A program made the position numbers and the translations under genes. A stretch of 64,000 nucleotides of DNA from Sphaerisporangium sp. TRM90804. Lineage in GTDB: Bacteria > Actinomycetota > Actinomycetes > Streptosporangiales > Streptosporangiaceae. The stretch lies in contig NZ_JARWAC010000004.1 of the NCBI RefSeq assembly GCF_029846175.1, forward strand, positions 310,001 to 374,000. Direction: 5' to 3'. This document shows positions 4,424 to 32,868 of this stretch, one piece after another. The notes under the pieces were generated by a model. It had not been told where the DNA came from, made no database searches, and was given only the letters and a program-made list of their open reading frames with translations. How positions within the stretch are numbered: position 1 is the stretch's first letter; every line of letters starts with the position of its first letter.

Positions 4424-5407
4424 TCAGTGAGACGAGCTCCACGGTCGTGGGTGCTTCGCGGAAGCGAACTGTCCCGTGGCGATCAGGATCACGACGAGCG
4501 CGAGCGGCGCGATCCACCCGCTCCAGCCGAGGATCGTCGCCTGCGTGGTGTCGACGTGCTCGCCGGCCTTGGCGAAGAGGAGGTAGGTCCCGCCCGCCCC
4601 GTTGAACGCGGCATGCGCGAGGGCCACGGGCCACACGGACCCCGATCGGAGCCGCAGCCAGCCGAAGACCGCGCCGACCAGGATGCACATGCCGACCATC
4701 GCGGTCACGCCGAGCCAGCCCGGCGCATCCGGGTAGTTGTACCCCAGGAGAATGAGCGGAGCGTGCCAAAGGCCCCAGATCACGCCCGAGATCAGGAGGG
4801 CTGGGAGTGTACCGAGCGGCATCAGTCTCGGCAGCAGCCACCCTCGCCACCCGAGTTCCTCCCCCAGCGCCGGGATGAGGTTGATGAACGCCGCCAAGGG
4901 GAGCGCGGCGAGCTGGATGACGACGAGCGCGCCGATCGGCATCGGGATCTCGGCCACTCCCGCCGCGCCCGTTTGCTCGTCGAGGACCCGCTGGTACGCG
5001 GAGAAGTTCACGAAATCGGCCGGGTAGACCCCCAGCAGCGCGCCGACCGGAAGCGCCACCAGGACGAGCGCGATGGACACGATGATCCCCAGCGCCGCGT
5101 AGCCGAGCAGGCTCCGGACCGGTCGCAACGGCCACAGTCCGAGCGTCCGCGTCTTCCGCTGCGGCCGCTCGACGAAGAACACGACGACGAGGGCGGCGAT
5201 CGCGGGGGTCGTCATCGTGGCGGCGGCCACGAGGGTGAACCAGGGGCCGGCGAGTCCGTCACCGAACCAGAGCGGGAGCGCGAGGAGCCAGGCGAGCGCG
5301 AACGCCAGGGTGGTGAACACACCGATGGATCGCAGATCGCGACTGCTCATGCGGGGGCCGCCTCGGGGCGCGGCCGCCTTCGATCCGACCGGAGCTTCGA
5401 TGGTCAC
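4424..5407 (-). CDS. CPBP family intramembrane glutamic endopeptidase
   Basis: 327 residues, GTG start, with about eight predicted membrane helices. It shows the three Abi/CPBP motifs in order: EELGWRG (E183/E184), the His in WGLWHAPL (H215), and HAAFN (H265, N269). The family are membrane-embedded proteases; bacterial members are tied to processing of membrane proteins, peptide maturation or self-immunity, but the substrate here is unknown. Its start overlaps the stop of the upstream regulator gene in a GTGA, so the two are translationally coupled and the regulator probably controls or accompanies it. A second CPBP gene, not closely similar, lies at 15948-16889. Confidence 0.88.
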   Translation of the reverse strand: MTIEAPVGSKAAAPRGGPRMSSRDLRSIGVFTTLAFALAWLLALPLWFGDGLAGPWFTLVAAATMTTPAIAALVVVFFVERPQRKTRTLGLWPLRPVRSLLGYAALGIIVSIALVLVALPVGALLGVYPADFVNFSAYQRVLDEQTGAAGVAEIPMPIGALVVIQLAALPLAAFINLIPALGEELGWRGWLLPRLMPLGTLPALLISGVIWGLWHAPLILLGYNYPDAPGWLGVTAMVGMCILVGAVFGWLRLRSGSVWPVALAHAAFNGAGGTYLLFAKAGEHVDTTQATILGWSGWIAPLALVVILIATGQFASAKHPRPWSSSH

Positions 5408-6012
5408 GACGTCTGCCTTTCGAGGATGTGCAGACCGGCGATGGTGCGGTCGTCGCGGAACGCGATCCGCGCCGTGTAGTCGCCCGCCTCCAACGCAAGC
5501 GGCGTGTTCGTGATCGTCACGTCGCCGGCCCGGGCGACCTCAGGCTCTCCATGCCCCTCGAAAGCTCCCGACAGGCCGACGATCTGCGCCCACGCGGCCG
5601 CGAGCGCGTCCTCCGACAGGCCATCGCGCATGCTCGGATCGAACCGCTCGGTGACACGCGACCATCGCCCGGACGCGAGGTCCTCGATCACCGAGGCGGC
5701 CAGTTCGGCGACGCCGGGCAGGGGCGTGGTGTTCATGGGTTCTCCTGTTCTCGGATCGGTCGGCTTGCCGTAGCGCTGAAACGCCGCTTGCCGGCTCACG
5801 CCGAGCGCATCACCGATGACCTGCCACGTGGCGCCGTTCTGGCGCGCCTGCTGCACGACGGCACGCACGACGTCATCGGCGGCCGCCTGCATGCTCACGG
5901 CGCGCCCGATCGAGTCGGCCCAGTCGTCGCTTCTCGTCAGGACCCGTGAGGCGAGGAACGCCTCCATGCGCGCCTTCAAGGCCCGCAGCGCCTCTGTCAA
6001 CGTCTCTTGCAC
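5404..6012 (-). CDS. HTH regulator with C-terminal DUF3887-like domain
   Basis: 202 residues from a GTG. The N-terminal half is helical with a helix-turn-helix at about residues 60-83 (WQVIGDALGVSRQAAFQRYG); the C-terminal half (about 95-200) resembles the DUF3887/NTF2-like fold, likely a ligand or partner-binding module. It is first gene of a two-gene operon with the CPBP protease (GTGA overlap). Its promoter appears leaderless and is covered by a 21-bp inverted repeat, which suggests autoregulation. The domain calls rest on pattern recognition only. Confidence 0.75.
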   Translation of the reverse strand: MQETLTEALRALKARMEAFLASRVLTRSDDWADSIGRAVSMQAAADDVVRAVVQQARQNGATWQVIGDALGVSRQAAFQRYGKPTDPRTGEPMNTTPLPGVAELAASVIEDLASGRWSRVTERFDPSMRDGLSEDALAAAWAQIVGLSGAFEGHGEPEVARAGDVTITNTPLALEAGDYTARIAFRDDRTIAGLHILERQTS

Positions 6013-12262: not shown

Positions 12263-13477
12263 GTGGCCGCGATCACGGTCGTCGGCGTCGGCGCCGACGG
12301 ATGGGACGGCCTCGCCGCCGGCTCCCGCCGGGCCGTGCAGGACGCCGAGGTGCTGATGGGCGGTCGCAGGCAGCTCGGCCTCGTGCCGCCGAGCGCCGCC
12401 GAACGGGTCGCCTGGCCCTCTCCCCTGCTCCCCGCGCTGCCCGAGCTGATCCGGGCGCACGACGGCCGCCGCGTCTGCGTGCTGGCCAGCGGCGACCCGA
12501 TGTTCTACGGCATCGGCTCCACGCTGGTGCGGCTGCTCGGCCCCGGCCGGGTGGAGGTGCTGCCGCACCCGTCGTCGCTGTCGCTGGCCTGCGCCCGGCT
12601 CGGCTGGCCGGTGGAGGGCGTGGAGGTGGTCAGCCTGGTGGGCCGTCCCCCGGCCGCGCTGAACGCCGCCGTCCAGCCCGGCCGCCGCCTGGTCGTGCTC
12701 GGCGCCGACCGCGGGTCGCCCGCGCTGGTCGCCGCGCTGCTCACCGCCCGCGGCCACGGGCCCAGCCCGATGACCGTGCTCTGCGACCTCGGCGGGCCCG
12801 GCGAGTCCGTCGAGCGGGGCACGGCCGAGGCGTGGACGGCCCCGGCCGCGTCCGCGCTGAACGTGATCGCCGTCGAGTGCGCGCCGGGCCCCGGCGCCGA
12901 GCCGCTCGCCAGGGTGCCCGGCCTGCCCGACTCCGCGTTCGAGCACGACGGGCAGCTCACCAAGCGCGAGGTCCGCGCGGTGAGCCTGTCGCGGCTCGCC
13001 CCGCTCCCCGGCGAGCTGCTGTGGGACGTCGGCGCGGGCGCGGGCAGCGTCGCCGTCGAGTGGATGCGCGCCCACCCGTCGTGCGCCGCCGTCGCGATCG
13101 AGAGCAGGGCCGCCCGCGCCGCCGCGATCCGGCGCAACGCCGACGCGCTGGGCGTCCCCGCGCTGCGGGTCGCCGAGGGCGAGGCGCCCGCCGCGCTGGA
13201 GGGCCTGCCGGCGCCGGACGCCGTGTTCGTCGGCGGCGGCGCGACCGCCCCCGGCCTGCTGGAGACCTGCTGGGCGGCGCTGCGGCCCGGCGGACGGCTG
13301 GTGGTCAACGCCGTCACACTCGAATCCGAGGCCGTCCTGGCCCGGTGGTACGGCCGGCTCGGCGGCGACCTGGTGCGGCTCTCCGTCCAGCGCGCCTCGC
13401 CGGTCGGCGGCTTCACCGGATGGCGGGCCGCGATGCCGGTGACCGTATGGTCGGTCACCAGGAAGGACGCGCCATGA
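12263..13477 (+). CDS. cobL: Precorrin-6Y C5,15-methyltransferase (decarboxylating), CobL
   Basis: 404 residues; GTG start behind AAGGAGG. It is a fusion of a CbiE-like methyltransferase (residues 1-200, VGVGADGWDGL, ASGDPMFYGI) and a CbiT-like Rossmann methyltransferase (about 215-400, LLWDVGAGAGSVAVEW). It methylates C5 and C15 and decarboxylates the C12 side chain. Its TGA overlaps the ATG of cobM (ATGA), the first of a chain of coupled genes. Confidence 0.94.
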   Translation: MAAITVVGVGADGWDGLAAGSRRAVQDAEVLMGGRRQLGLVPPSAAERVAWPSPLLPALPELIRAHDGRRVCVLASGDPMFYGIGSTLVRLLGPGRVEVLPHPSSLSLACARLGWPVEGVEVVSLVGRPPAALNAAVQPGRRLVVLGADRGSPALVAALLTARGHGPSPMTVLCDLGGPGESVERGTAEAWTAPAASALNVIAVECAPGPGAEPLARVPGLPDSAFEHDGQLTKREVRAVSLSRLAPLPGELLWDVGAGAGSVAVEWMRAHPSCAAVAIESRAARAAAIRRNADALGVPALRVAEGEAPAALEGLPAPDAVFVGGGATAPGLLETCWAALRPGGRLVVNAVTLESEAVLARWYGRLGGDLVRLSVQRASPVGGFTGWRAAMPVTVWSVTRKDAP

Positions 13478-14217
13478 CCGTGTACTTCATCGGAGCCGGC
13501 CCCGGGGCCGCCGACCTGATCACCGTGCGGGGGCTGCGGCTGCTGGAGTCCGCGCGGGTCTGCCTGTACGCGGGCTCGCTGGTGCCGCGCGAGCTGCTGG
13601 ACGCCTGCCCCGAGGGCGCGCGGCTGGTCGACACCGCGAACCTGACCCTCGCCGAGATCGTCGAGGAGCTGGCCGGCGCGCACCGGGCCGGGCTCGACGT
13701 GGCCCGGCTGCACTCGGGCGACCCGTCGGTGTTCAGCGCCGTGGCCGAGCAGATGCGCCGGCTGGACGCGCTGGACGTGCCGTACGAGGTGGTGCCCGGG
13801 GTGCCGGCGTTCGCCGCCGCGGCCGCCTCGCTCGGCCGGGAGCTGACCATTCCCGGGGTCGGGCAGACCATCATCCTGACGCGCACCTCGGCACGCGCCA
13901 CTCCGATGCCCCCGGGCGAGGACCTGGCGACGCTGGGCGCTAGCGGCGCCACGATGGTGCTGCACCTGGCCGTGCAGCGCATCGACGCGGTGGTCGAGGA
14001 ACTGCTGCCGTCCTACGGGCCCGGCTGCCCGGTGGCCGTGGTGGCGCGGGCGAGCCGGCAGGACGAGGAGATCCTGCGCGGCACGCTGGCCGACATCGCC
14101 CCCCGGGTGCGCGCGGCGGGGATCCGGCGCACCGCCGTCATCGTCGTCGGGCCGGTGCTGACGGCGTCGGAGTTCCCCGACAGCCACCTCTACAGCGCCG
14201 CGCGCGTCCGGTCGTGA
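13474..14217 (+). CDS. cobM: Precorrin-4 C11-methyltransferase, CobM
   Basis: 247 residues; ATG with GGAAGGA upstream and an ATGA overlap with cobL. SAM-binding motifs GAGPGAADLIT and HSGDPSVFSA are present. It methylates C11 of precorrin-4. The stop codon overlaps a GTG (GTGA at 14214-14217) that opens a 30-codon mini-ORF instead of cobK itself, because a short duplication separates the two genes. Confidence 0.94.
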   Translation: MTVYFIGAGPGAADLITVRGLRLLESARVCLYAGSLVPRELLDACPEGARLVDTANLTLAEIVEELAGAHRAGLDVARLHSGDPSVFSAVAEQMRRLDALDVPYEVVPGVPAFAAAAASLGRELTIPGVGQTIILTRTSARATPMPPGEDLATLGASGATMVLHLAVQRIDAVVEELLPSYGPGCPVAVVARASRQDEEILRGTLADIAPRVRAAGIRRTAVIVVGPVLTASEFPDSHLYSAARVRS

Positions 14218-14251
14218 GACGCGTCCTGATCCTCGGCGGCACCGCCGAGGC
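14212..14251 (+). repeat. 40-bp direct repeat, copy 1 (5' end of cobK)
   Basis: Identical over 40 bases to 14301-14340, which holds the first codons of cobK. The offset between copies is 89 bp. The copy begins at the last bases of cobM. Confidence 0.95.
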
Positions 14252-14306
14252 ACCCGTCCTCGTCGCCGGGCCGCCCGGCCCGCGCGCTGAGTGCGCACGT
14301 TCGTGA
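14214..14306 (+). CDS. 30-codon mini-ORF between cobM and cobK
   Basis: It starts GTG inside the cobM stop (GTGA, 14214-14217) and ends TGA inside the first codon of cobK (GTGA, 14303-14306). The first 13 residues, VRRVLILGGTAEA, equal the N terminus of CobK; the remainder is a Pro/Gly/Arg tail ending ECARS. It arose from duplication of the cobK start. The peptide itself is probably without function, but its frame keeps translation coupled from cobM through to cobK, which may explain why it survives. Confidence 0.6.
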   Translation: MRRVLILGGTAEAPVLVAGPPGPRAECARS

Positions 14307-14340
14307 GACGCGTCCTGATCCTCGGCGGCACCGCCGAGGC
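14301..14340 (+). repeat. 40-bp direct repeat, copy 2 (native cobK start)
   Basis: Second copy of the repeat at 14212-14251; it continues into the intact cobK reading frame. Confidence 0.95.
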
Positions 14341-15037
14341 GCGTGCGTTGGCCGCCGAGCTGGCCGGGCCGGGCGTCCACGTCGTCTCGTCGCTGGCCGG
14401 GCGCGTGAGCGACCCGCGGCTGCCCGTCGGCGAGGTGCGCGAGGGCGGCTTCGGCGGGCCGGACGGCCTGGCCGCCTGGCTGACGGCGCGTCGCGTCGAC
14501 GCGCTGGTCGACGCGACCCACCCGTTCGCGTCCCGCATGACCGCCTCGGCCGCCGAGGCCGCGCGGCGCACCGGCGTGCCGCTGCTGGTGCTGCGCCGGC
14601 CCGGCTGGCGGGAGGGGCCGGGCGACGAGTGGCGGCGGGTCCCCTCGCTGGAGGCCGCCGCCGAGCTGCTCACCGCGCCCGCCCGGGTGTTCCTCACCAC
14701 CGGGCGCAGGAGCCTGCAGGTCTTCGCCGGGCGACCGGGCGTGTGGCTGCTGGCCAGGTCGGTCGACCCGCCCGAGCCGCCGGTCCCGGCCGGCGTCCAC
14801 GTGCTGCTGGACCGCGGGCCGTACACGGTCGAGGGCGAGCGCGCCCTGATCCGCGAGTACCGGCTCGACGTGCTGGTCACCAAGGACAGCGGCGGCGCCA
14901 TGACCACCGCCAAGCTCGTCGCCGCCCGCGAGCTGGGCCTCCCGGTGATCATGGTCGACCGGCCGCCCCTGCCCGAGGGCCTAGGCCTGGTCGGCGACGT
15001 CTCCACCGCCGCCGCCTGGGCCCGCGGGCGGGCCTGA
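14303..15037 (+). CDS. cobK: Precorrin-6A reductase, CobK
   Basis: 244 residues from GTG 14303, chosen because this codon overlaps the stop of the preceding mini-ORF and corresponds to the duplicated start at 14214; an in-frame GTG at 14291 would add four residues. NADPH-binding LILGGTAEARALA lies at the N terminus, and the central DALVDATHPFA and C-terminal LVTKDSGG motifs are typical of CobK/CbiJ. It reduces precorrin-6A to precorrin-6B. It is last of the coupled cobL-cobM-(mini-ORF)-cobK set. Confidence 0.92.
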   Translation: MRRVLILGGTAEARALAAELAGPGVHVVSSLAGRVSDPRLPVGEVREGGFGGPDGLAAWLTARRVDALVDATHPFASRMTASAAEAARRTGVPLLVLRRPGWREGPGDEWRRVPSLEAAAELLTAPARVFLTTGRRSLQVFAGRPGVWLLARSVDPPEPPVPAGVHVLLDRGPYTVEGERALIREYRLDVLVTKDSGGAMTTAKLVAARELGLPVIMVDRPPLPEGLGLVGDVSTAAAWARGRA

Positions 15038-20454: not shown

Positions 20455-20625
20455 AGCTGCCGTAGTCTTCCCGTAGACGAAGGCAATGGGAGGAAGCCGG
20501 TGCGAATCCGGCGCGGTCCCGCCACTGTGACCGGGGAGCGAACCCCACCGAAGGCCACGGCCCGGAGACGGGCGGGAAGGCCGGGGTGAGCGTCGATCCG
20601 GAAGCCAGGACACTTCCGCCGTCGT
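20455..20625 (+). ncRNA. Cobalamin riboswitch upstream of cobN
   Basis: It contains the conserved elements in order: GGAAGCCGGTGCGAATCCGG, GCGGTCCCGCCACTGTGA, a CGGGG/CCCC helix and the B12 box GAAGCCAGGACAC. It lies in the leader of cobN. A small hairpin CGGGG-CGAGGA-CCCCG (20639-20654) just before the cobN ribosome site may be the switching element, implying translational control (inference). Coenzyme B12 binding would turn cobN off. Confidence 0.93.
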
Positions 20626-30680: not shown

Positions 30681-30694
30681 GAAGCCTCCTCAGG

Positions 30695-30845
30695 GATGAC
30701 GCGTCCCGAACATCGAGGTCACGGCCACCCAAGCGACCTGGCTCCCGGGATCAACGTCCCGGATACAGTGGCGCGTCCGCACCGGCATCTCACCGGATTT
30801 CCCTTGGACAACCGTGAAATCTACCGAAACGTATCCCTTCCTCCC
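30695..30845 (-). ncRNA. Cobalamin riboswitch upstream of cbtB
   Basis: On the minus strand it shows AAATCCGGTGAGATGCCGGT, GCGCCACTGT and the B12-box variant GAGCCAGGTCGCTTGGGTGG before the cbtB start. It should shut off cobalt import and the late pathway genes together when coenzyme B12 is abundant. Confidence 0.9.
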
Positions 30846-31037: not shown

Positions 31038-31967
31038 ATGTCCGACGAACGTCCGATCCTGGTGACCGGGGCGGCCGGGAGCGTGGGAAGGGTCGGGCGG
31101 AGCGTCGTCGGCCTGCTGCGGCGCGACGGCCTGCCGGTCCGCGCGCTCGTCCGCCGGGAGGACGAGCGCGCCGAGGCGCTGCGCGCGATCGGCGCGGAGG
31201 TGGTGGCCGGCGATCTCGCCCGCGCCCCCGACGTGGCGCGCGCGCTGGACGGGTGCCGGAGCATGTACTTCGGCATGAGCGTGTCGTCGTCGTACCTGGA
31301 GGCCGCGCTCACCACCACGGCCGTGGCGCGCCGCTACGGGGGCCTGGACGCGTTCGTCGCCATCTCGCAGATGACCGTCTCGCAGATGGACGTGACCAGC
31401 ACCGAGGAGTCGGCGCACCAGCGCTGGCACTGGCTGGCCGAGCAGGCCCTCGCCTGGTCGGGGGTGCCGGCCGTGTACGTCCGGCCGACCGTCTTCCTGG
31501 AGAACCCGCTGTTCACGACCTTCGCGGCGGCGTCGATACGCCAGGACGGCACGATCCGGCTGCCGTTCGGGGCGGGCCGCACGTCTCCGGTCGCGGCCGG
31601 GGACGTGGCCGAGTCGGTCGCGGCGATCCTGCGCGACCCCCGCCGGCACGTCGGGAAGGTCTACGAGCTGACCGGCCCCCGCTCCCGCGACCTGACCGCC
31701 ATGGCGGAGGAGTTCTCCCGCGCGCTCGGCCGCACCGTCACCTACGTCGACGAGCCGGCCGAGCGGTGGCTGGACCGCGACCTGCGCGGCGCGCACCTGC
31801 CCCCGCACCTCGCCGGCCACCTCGCCGCCATGGCCCGCCTGCACGCCGCCAACCGGTACGACCGGGCGACCCGCGACGTCGAACTGCTCACCGGACGGCC
31901 CGCGTCCACCCTGGAGGACTTCGTCCGGGCCCACCCGGAGCTCTACCGGGGCGCCTCACCCGCGTGA
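31038..31967 (+). CDS. NmrA-like NAD(P)-dependent oxidoreductase
   Basis: 309 residues; ATG behind GGGGGGAGAG. Rossmann motif VTGAAGSVGR and VRALVRRED at the N terminus, with the middle FVAISQMTVSQMDVTS and VRPTVFLENPLF typical of atypical SDR/NmrA quinone oxidoreductase-like proteins. It is only distantly similar to the one at 6225-7151. Probable reductase or redox sensor; substrate unknown. It is divergent from the cobalt operon and has no apparent tie to it. Confidence 0.85.
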   Translation: MSDERPILVTGAAGSVGRVGRSVVGLLRRDGLPVRALVRREDERAEALRAIGAEVVAGDLARAPDVARALDGCRSMYFGMSVSSSYLEAALTTTAVARRYGGLDAFVAISQMTVSQMDVTSTEESAHQRWHWLAEQALAWSGVPAVYVRPTVFLENPLFTTFAAASIRQDGTIRLPFGAGRTSPVAAGDVAESVAAILRDPRRHVGKVYELTGPRSRDLTAMAEEFSRALGRTVTYVDEPAERWLDRDLRGAHLPPHLAGHLAAMARLHAANRYDRATRDVELLTGRPASTLEDFVRAHPELYRGASPA

Positions 31968-32061
31968 CCGGCGGGCCGCGGGCCGCGGGCCGCGTCTACG
32001 ATGAGGCGGTCTCCCCCGTTCCCGGCAGGCGCCCCCCACCGTGGGAGCGAAACGGAGCAGC

Positions 32062-32868
32062 ATGACCGACGACGCACGAGCACTCATGCCCATCGCCCTG
32101 GAAGCCGTGGCCGTCGCCCGCGAGCTGGTCACCACCAGCCTGCCCGGCGTCGTCACCTCCAAGGGCGACCGCGACATGGCGACCGAGGTCGACTTCGCCG
32201 TCGAGCGGGCCGTCCGCGAGCACCTCGCGCGGCACACCCCGGCCATCGGGGTGCTCGGCGAGGAGGAGGGCACCGACGGCCGCGTGCACAACGGCCTGCA
32301 GTGGGTGCTCGACCCGGTCGACGGCACCGTCAACTTCGTGCACGGCCTGCCGCTGTGCGGCGTCTCGCTCGCCCTCGTACGCGACGACACGGCGATCCTT
32401 GGCGTCATCGACCTGCCCTTCCTCGGCTCCCGCTACGCCGCCGCCGAGGGCGGCGGCGCCACGGCCGACGACGAGCCCATCAAGTGCAGCACCACCGCCA
32501 CGCTCGACGCCGCCCTGGTGTCCATGGGCGACTACGCGGTCGGCGACGACGCCGGGCGGCTCAACCGCGACCGCCTGGCCATCACCCGCCTGCTGGCCGC
32601 CCGGGCCCAGCGGGTGCGCATGTTCGGCTCGGCCGCCATCGACCTGGTCTGGGTCGCCGAAGGCCGGACGGACGCCTGCGTCATGCTCGCCAACAAGCCC
32701 TGGGACACCGCCGCCGGGGTCCTCATCGCCAAGGAGGCCGGCGCGCTGGTCACCGACGCCGACGGCACCCCGCACACCACCGCCTCCGGCGCGACCCTCG
32801 CGGCCGCCCCGGGCGTCCTGCCCGAGCTCGTCGCCCTCGTCGGCGAGGCGCGCTCCGGACAGCCGTAG
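32062..32868 (+). CDS. Inositol monophosphatase family protein
   Basis: 268 residues from ATG 32062 (GGAGCAG upstream; an earlier in-frame codon lacks one). Metal-binding motifs of the Li-sensitive phosphatase fold are all visible: GEEEG, DPVDGTVNF and WDTAAGVLIAKEAGA. Such enzymes dephosphorylate inositol phosphate, histidinol phosphate or sugar bisphosphates; the sequence does not tell which. It stands alone. Confidence 0.9.
   Translation: MTDDARALMPIALEAVAVARELVTTSLPGVVTSKGDRDMATEVDFAVERAVREHLARHTPAIGVLGEEEGTDGRVHNGLQWVLDPVDGTVNFVHGLPLCGVSLALVRDDTAILGVIDLPFLGSRYAAAEGGGATADDEPIKCSTTATLDAALVSMGDYAVGDDAGRLNRDRLAITRLLAARAQRVRMFGSAAIDLVWVAEGRTDACVMLANKPWDTAAGVLIAKEAGALVTDADGTPHTTASGATLAAAPGVLPELVALVGEARSGQP

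Follow-up and report, generated by a model that had tools for sequence, protein, structure and literature searches.

Termination-reinitiation coupling is described, in the excerpts cited here, for overlapping gene pairs with 4-nt NTGA overlaps (PMC6728339, PMC10666635). In E. coli reporters, according to an excerpt of one of these papers, two gene pairs lost 80-90% of reinitiation when a 38-nt gap was present, and a third pair lost all of it (PMC10666635). Excerpts of a 2025 review present mycobacterial interspersed repetitive units (MIRUs) as apparently mobile mycobacterial repeats that insert at start codons and whose ORF is coupled by a 4-nt overlap to the downstream gene, with a likely minimal effect of the insertion on expression; the same excerpts describe short ORFs that serve only to deliver ribosomes (PMC12548453). 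The nfORF, as outlined in part of its source, is a synthetic short upstream ORF that boosts translation (PMC13255528).

The open-licence literature, represented mostly by titles and the openings of abstracts, yielded no report of recurrent relay ORFs born of tandem duplication, nor of the cobM-cobK junction of Nonomuraea. The need for coupled translation in natural operons, and the crossing of intergenic gaps by ribosomes, have been argued mainly from reporters. Here we analyze a mini-ORF that lies between cobM and cobK in Sphaerisporangium sp. TRM90804 and that, judging from sequence comparison, is probably a translational relay kept for the continuity of translation and not for its peptide.

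The cbiET-cobM-cobK Locus

The 64-kb stretch of DNA that was analyzed (the window) contains cbiET, cobM, and cobK, in this order on the + strand. The features of the locus are the following.

12263-13477, + strand: fused cbiE-cbiT (cobL-type) gene, cbiET; TIGR02467 and TIGR02469 above cut-off
13474-14217, + strand: cobM, precorrin-4 C11-methyltransferase; TIGR01465 at 298.6 bits (cut-off 259.65); TGA stop at 14215-14217
14195-14283, + strand: 89-nt tandem unit 1; 79% identical, ungapped, to 14284-14372
14212-14251, + strand: copy 1 of an exact 40-nt repeat of the cobK start, superimposed on the stop of cobM
14214-14306, + strand: putative relay mini-ORF, GTG start, 30 codons; GTGA shared with the cobM stop, TGA inside the GTGA of the cobK start
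14284-14372, + strand: 89-nt tandem unit 2; ungapped pair with 14195-14283
14301-14340, + strand: copy 2 of the exact 40-nt repeat, at the real cobK start
14303-15037, + strand: cobK, precorrin-6A reductase; NF005968 at 332.3 bits (cut-off 231)

In the window, cbiET and cobM meet in a plain overlap, the stop of the former and the start of the latter sharing ATGA at 13474-13477. Two cobalamin riboswitches are present, at 20466-20615 (+ strand, RF00174, 80.1 bits) and 30682-30829 (- strand, RF01482, 50.3 bits), neither of them directly upstream of cbiET-cobM-cobK.

The first-pass annotation had placed a 40-bp exact repeat of the cobK start on the end of cobM, opening a 30-codon frame coupled by GTGA to both genes. 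Repeat and frame are both there: the copies lie 89 nt apart, the second ending at 14340, and the mini-ORF has stop/start overlaps of 4 nt at its two ends (14214-14217 and 14303-14306). The self-alignment score of the region was reached by none of 60 single-letter shuffles, so the repeat is not due to chance. Between the 89-nt units, 40 nt are identical and the other 49 positions are about 60% alike, as calculated from the 79% overall. The insert looks like a local tandem duplication. Copying may have taken in 40 nt along with filler of unrelated sequence, or an earlier duplication of 89 nt may have been homogenized in the middle of the unit. A search of the 8.3-Mb genome for other copies of 14100-14500 (E ≤ 0.001) gave only five short matches, of 36-76 nt and 72-86% identity.

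The same annotation noted that the offset of 89 is not a multiple of three and that coupling is nevertheless kept on both sides; such an offset is in fact no threat to coupling. Because 89 is 2 modulo 3, the second TGA necessarily falls in frame, and this is the class that makes a relay; class 0 modulo 3 would give a longer CobK and class 1 a broken link. Were cobK to start at a further in-frame GTG, at 14291, its overlap with the mini-ORF would be 16 nt. As a 16-nt overlap of cobM and cobK is common in relatives, cobK may start at 14303 or at 14291, and both starts are coupled.

In the scheme that we favor, ribosomes that end cobM would restart at 14214, make a throw-away peptide of 30 residues, terminate at 14306, and begin again on cobK (at 14303 or 14291). 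Through local duplication at the cobM-cobK overlap, the real cobK start now lies 89 nt further downstream of cobM, and the copy of this start begins a frame that is free of stops up to the real one. Translation of cobK would thereby stay dependent on cobM, with no long untranslated gap in between. More generally, inserts would be retained mainly if translation is unbroken by any route (mini-ORF, cobM tail, or cobK head), the peptide itself being presumably irrelevant.

The cobM-cobK Junction in Related Genomes

Eleven genomes of the genus were available, including that of the window. In seven of the ten others (G001-G005, G009, and G010; loci L037-L043) cobK is on the opposite strand from cobM, about 2.5-3.5 kb away, and the remaining three have weak matches only; hence, other genera of the family were used for the comparison. 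Matches to cobM at E 1e-60 or better occur in 168 of 341 family genomes, and outside the genus cobM and cobK are often adjacent. The 311 loci, including a scan of named genomes, gave 176 junctions with the two genes at most 450 nt apart, of which 85 are distinct. The loci left out comprise 58 without a same-strand cobK in the DNA read (many of these stretches end 900 nt past cobM), 42 with cobK more than 450 nt off, 30 without cobM, and 5 with a partial cobM. The cobM DNA of the window is closer to that of Nonomuraea (up to 88% identity) than to that of its own genus (76-80%), which may reflect replacement or transfer. At E 1e-20, no match to cobK is present in 20 of the 54 Nonomuraea genomes, and synthesis of B12 may have been lost repeatedly.

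The gap is smaller than 20 nt in 63 of the 85 distinct junctions, and all 63 have a start/stop overlap under the overlap-set rule, the commonest arrangement being a direct overlap of 4, 13, or 16 nt. Another 19 junctions of the family carry 21-341 nt of extra DNA. Many of these are from Nonomuraea, some of them assigned, through a junction identical to that of a named record, to N. basaltis, N. maritima, N. terrae, and N. aurantiaca. Three more inserts are found in Frankia (70, 96, and 141 nt); they belong to another family and were kept out of the 19.

Clear tandem repeats are found by self-alignment in 10 of the 19 inserts. The junction itself is copied in the window (shift 89), L073 (53), L075 (32), L080 (47, in two copies), and, less clearly, L079 (89), whereas L078 (42), L091 (30/60), L140 (18), L059 (24), and L074 (35) have their repeats within the insert or at its edge. 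For the other nine, the best self-alignment shift is no better than in shuffles. Within four long relay inserts the repeat periods are 24, 18, 30/60, and 42 nt, all multiples of three; those of L080 (47) and L074 (35) are not, and this was counted against the relay.

Two near-sisters catch such a change: L094 has a direct ATGA overlap, and L075 has almost the same sequence plus a 32-nt duplication that makes an 11-codon relay. On the cobM tree, built from the 69 of 85 junctions whose cobM is full-length and more than 70% identical, the insert state requires 14 changes, 9 of them forced by well supported branches; the inserts on this tree number 19, namely the 3 from Frankia and 16 of those from the family. 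Unrelated sequences have come to fill the cobM-cobK junction and its neighbor on several occasions, the chain of frames being nearly always unbroken.

Continuity of the Chain of Frames

A junction was scored as a chain when each ORF begins on the stop of the previous one, from cobM into the cobK frame. By this rule, which was picked after the first junction had been seen and whose overlap set was widened along the way, the chain is unbroken in 18 of the 19 family inserts of at least 20 nt. The count is again 18 with a loose window, 17 with strict overlaps of 1, 4, or 16 nt, and 20 of 22 when Frankia is included. Bridging is by a mini-ORF of 11-110 codons in 11 inserts, by a longer CobK start in 4, and by a longer CobM tail in 3; the chain is absent from L053 (51 nt) and from the Frankia locus L149. 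The reading of the first-pass annotation, a relay ORF after insertion between two coupled genes, is consistent with both the direct overlaps of the relatives and the persistence of the chain, and the comparison of junctions that it had suggested speaks in its favor.

The best surviving alternative is that the mini-ORF is a neutral by-product: in GC-rich DNA, frames would stay open simply through tandem duplication where a start and a stop overlap, and cobK would start alone, or at a lower but tolerated rate. The nulls bear directly on this. Under the loose rule, shuffled inserts are expected to give 7.9 chains in 19 (P = 1.2e-6 for the 18 observed), and random genomic segments taken from the window 6.7 (P = 4.4e-8). 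The fairest of the nulls is tandem duplication simulated on gapless junctions, which yields 12.3-12.4 of 19 (P of at least 18 = 0.0025-0.003). With plain duplication and no selection, about two thirds of cases thus retain the chain, which counts for neutrality and against the relay, but the observed number exceeds this null too. Inserts also differ in how much their chain can tell: that of the window survives 9% of random one-base indels, but in seven others it survives at least 70%, so that these seven say little, as neutrality would have it. This indel null depends on the observed inserts, and its P values were therefore not used.

A Second Junction and Ordinary Gaps

The same rule was run at the cbiET-cobM junction of the same loci, as a replication with the rule fixed though not blind, the inserts having already been seen. 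Among 117 distinct junctions, 94 have a gap below 14 nt and 23 have more. The chain is kept in 21 of these 23, when shuffles give an expectation of 13.0 (P = 1.5e-4) or, with the loose rule, 14.3 (P = 0.001), again more than neutrality predicts. It is absent in L009/L038 (164 nt) and L164 (248 nt). Relay ORFs occur in 17 of the 23 insert-bearing relatives (among the relay relatives are L045/L232, L058, L060, L079/L207, L094, L211, and L212), some with two ORFs in a row; in L058 and L060 the relays reach 98 and 104 codons. That frames of 98, 104, and, at cobM-cobK, 110 codons remain open counts against neutrality.

Ordinary gaps served as control, taken with a simple gene caller from 453 kb made up of the window and eight N. 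gerenzanensis stretches; the cob region was masked in the window and in the one stretch that includes it. A chain is present in 8 of the 69 same-strand gaps that measure 14-350 nt (11 of 69 under the loose rule), compared with 39 of the 42 inserts of both cob junctions (Fisher P = 1.8e-18); since control starts are predicted and upstream stops are not start/stop overlaps from the outset, the shuffle and duplication nulls are given as well. This control, for which genes were also called more loosely, took the place of a smaller one of 154 kb, with the cob region unmasked, which gave 3 of 21, in the same direction. Length class 1 modulo 3 accounts for 4 of 42 cases at the cob junctions and for 30 of 69 controls (P = 1.2e-4), a depletion that also argues against neutrality; this class breaks a simple relay, yet the four cases (94, 45, 48, and 48 nt) are bridged in other ways.

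Elsewhere in the window, a 33-codon ORF at 31964-32065, bounded by GTGA and ATGA, connects a gene whose end is at 31967 with a start near 32062; because 8 of 69 ordinary gaps pass the rule, it may be a relay or chance. A third coupled junction, between a DUF3887 gene and a CAAX-protease gene (window 5407), lacks a positive gap throughout the 27 loci (of 29) that have both genes, and is thus uninformative on relays. These two genes (4424-6012, - strand, GTGA overlap) have a match in 29 of 338 family genomes, a patchy distribution, and their DNA is 93% identical between the window and Nonomuraea G210 and G216, which suggests transfer.

Translation Signals and Other Explanations

The Shine-Dalgarno duplex before the cobK GTG at 14303 is, at -2.2 kcal/mol, the weakest of the 19 insert junctions. 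That the cobK of the window is almost devoid of a Shine-Dalgarno match fits poorly with a gene that starts on its own. The median at insert junctions is -6.0 (n = 19) versus -4.0 at gapless ones (n = 62). Hence, several relatives may start cobK independently, a point for neutrality and against the relay. Between coupled and all other cobK genes the difference is not significant (P = 0.09). Shine-Dalgarno strength was also tried as a divider of intact (21) and broken (2) chains at cbiET-cobM and gave no difference (P = 0.70). RNA structure at the cobK start was discarded as a candidate too, the predicted folding of both start regions being no better than in shuffles. Taking the nulls, the length classes, the long open frames, and the weak signal of the window together with the points on the other side, we consider the neutral explanation unlikely.

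A second alternative, which seems less probable still, is that the frame is kept as a shield against Rho-dependent termination or decay (polarity), with reinitiation at the precise overlap being incidental. Such a shield would select for the same unbroken translation, including the fillers of 60-110 codons, and, as the start sequence itself contains TGA, a correct frame is enough to bring about the exact stop/start overlap. A shielding frame, however, need not end on the start, and the cobK of the window, without a good Shine-Dalgarno sequence, probably needs delivered ribosomes anyway. Shield and relay are compatible ideas and are inseparable by sequence alone.

One might also think of a functional or regulatory peptide (a leader or stalling peptide), as the short ORF precedes a biosynthetic gene. 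The first-pass annotation had named a functional peptide conserved in the same arrangement across many genera as the outcome that would speak against a relay. What is found instead is that the 11 mini-ORF peptides, compared by eye, have lengths of 11-110 residues and no common sequence beyond the copied gene start, so that the peptide is not the conserved element; that of the window has no NCBIfam match in a profile search. A functional peptide was therefore rejected and is very improbable. An assembly or sequencing artefact is hardly credible, for although the genome is a draft in 86 contigs, about 21% of positions differ between the 89-nt units and comparable duplications are present in the assemblies of relatives.

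Discussion

The preferred reading remains that of a relay. At two neighboring junctions evolution seems to have repeated the coupling experiment several times, and the survivors are almost all unbroken, whatever the peptide. The inserts of the cob junctions thus offer a test of selection on coupling that is independent of the protein products, and their relay ORFs would give a plain reason for the existence of some functionless small ORFs. With rather less assurance, and as a proposal about which our doubts slightly outweigh our belief, relay ORFs born of tandem duplication might be a kind of small ORF that arises repeatedly in high-GC actinomycetes. Between coupled genes, mainly the versions with unbroken translation would survive, so that some of the small ORFs found in operons would be conveyors of ribosomes without peptide function, growing to 100 codons by in-frame expansion of repeats.

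Among known systems, termination-reinitiation pairs have the same 4-nt NTGA overlaps, with a strong loss of coupling with distance, but they consist of two real genes, whereas in the window a nonconserved mini-ORF stands between the genes. The nfORF shares with the proposed relay an ORF for a meaningless short peptide that brings ribosomes to the next start. The nfORF, however, is a designed element whose short ORF contains a strong ribosome-binding site, while the window has no good site before cobK.

MIRUs, reportedly the subject of Supply et al. 1997, are closer. As with them, the window has short extra DNA at a start codon, with its own ORF in short stop/start overlap with a neighboring gene; in the window the overlap is GTGA at both ends. 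MIRUs are repeated in many mycobacteria, whereas the insert of the window has no other full copy in its genome. A dispersed repeat of the MIRU type is thus ruled out for the window, which lacks dispersed copies, and also for L079, whose insert has one match in its own genome (G204). Clear local tandem repeats, as in 10 of the 19 inserts, are a further difference. MIRUs are therefore the nearest precedent: as far as sequence can tell, the mini-ORF between cobM and cobK would work like a MIRU ORF, yet it is no MIRU.
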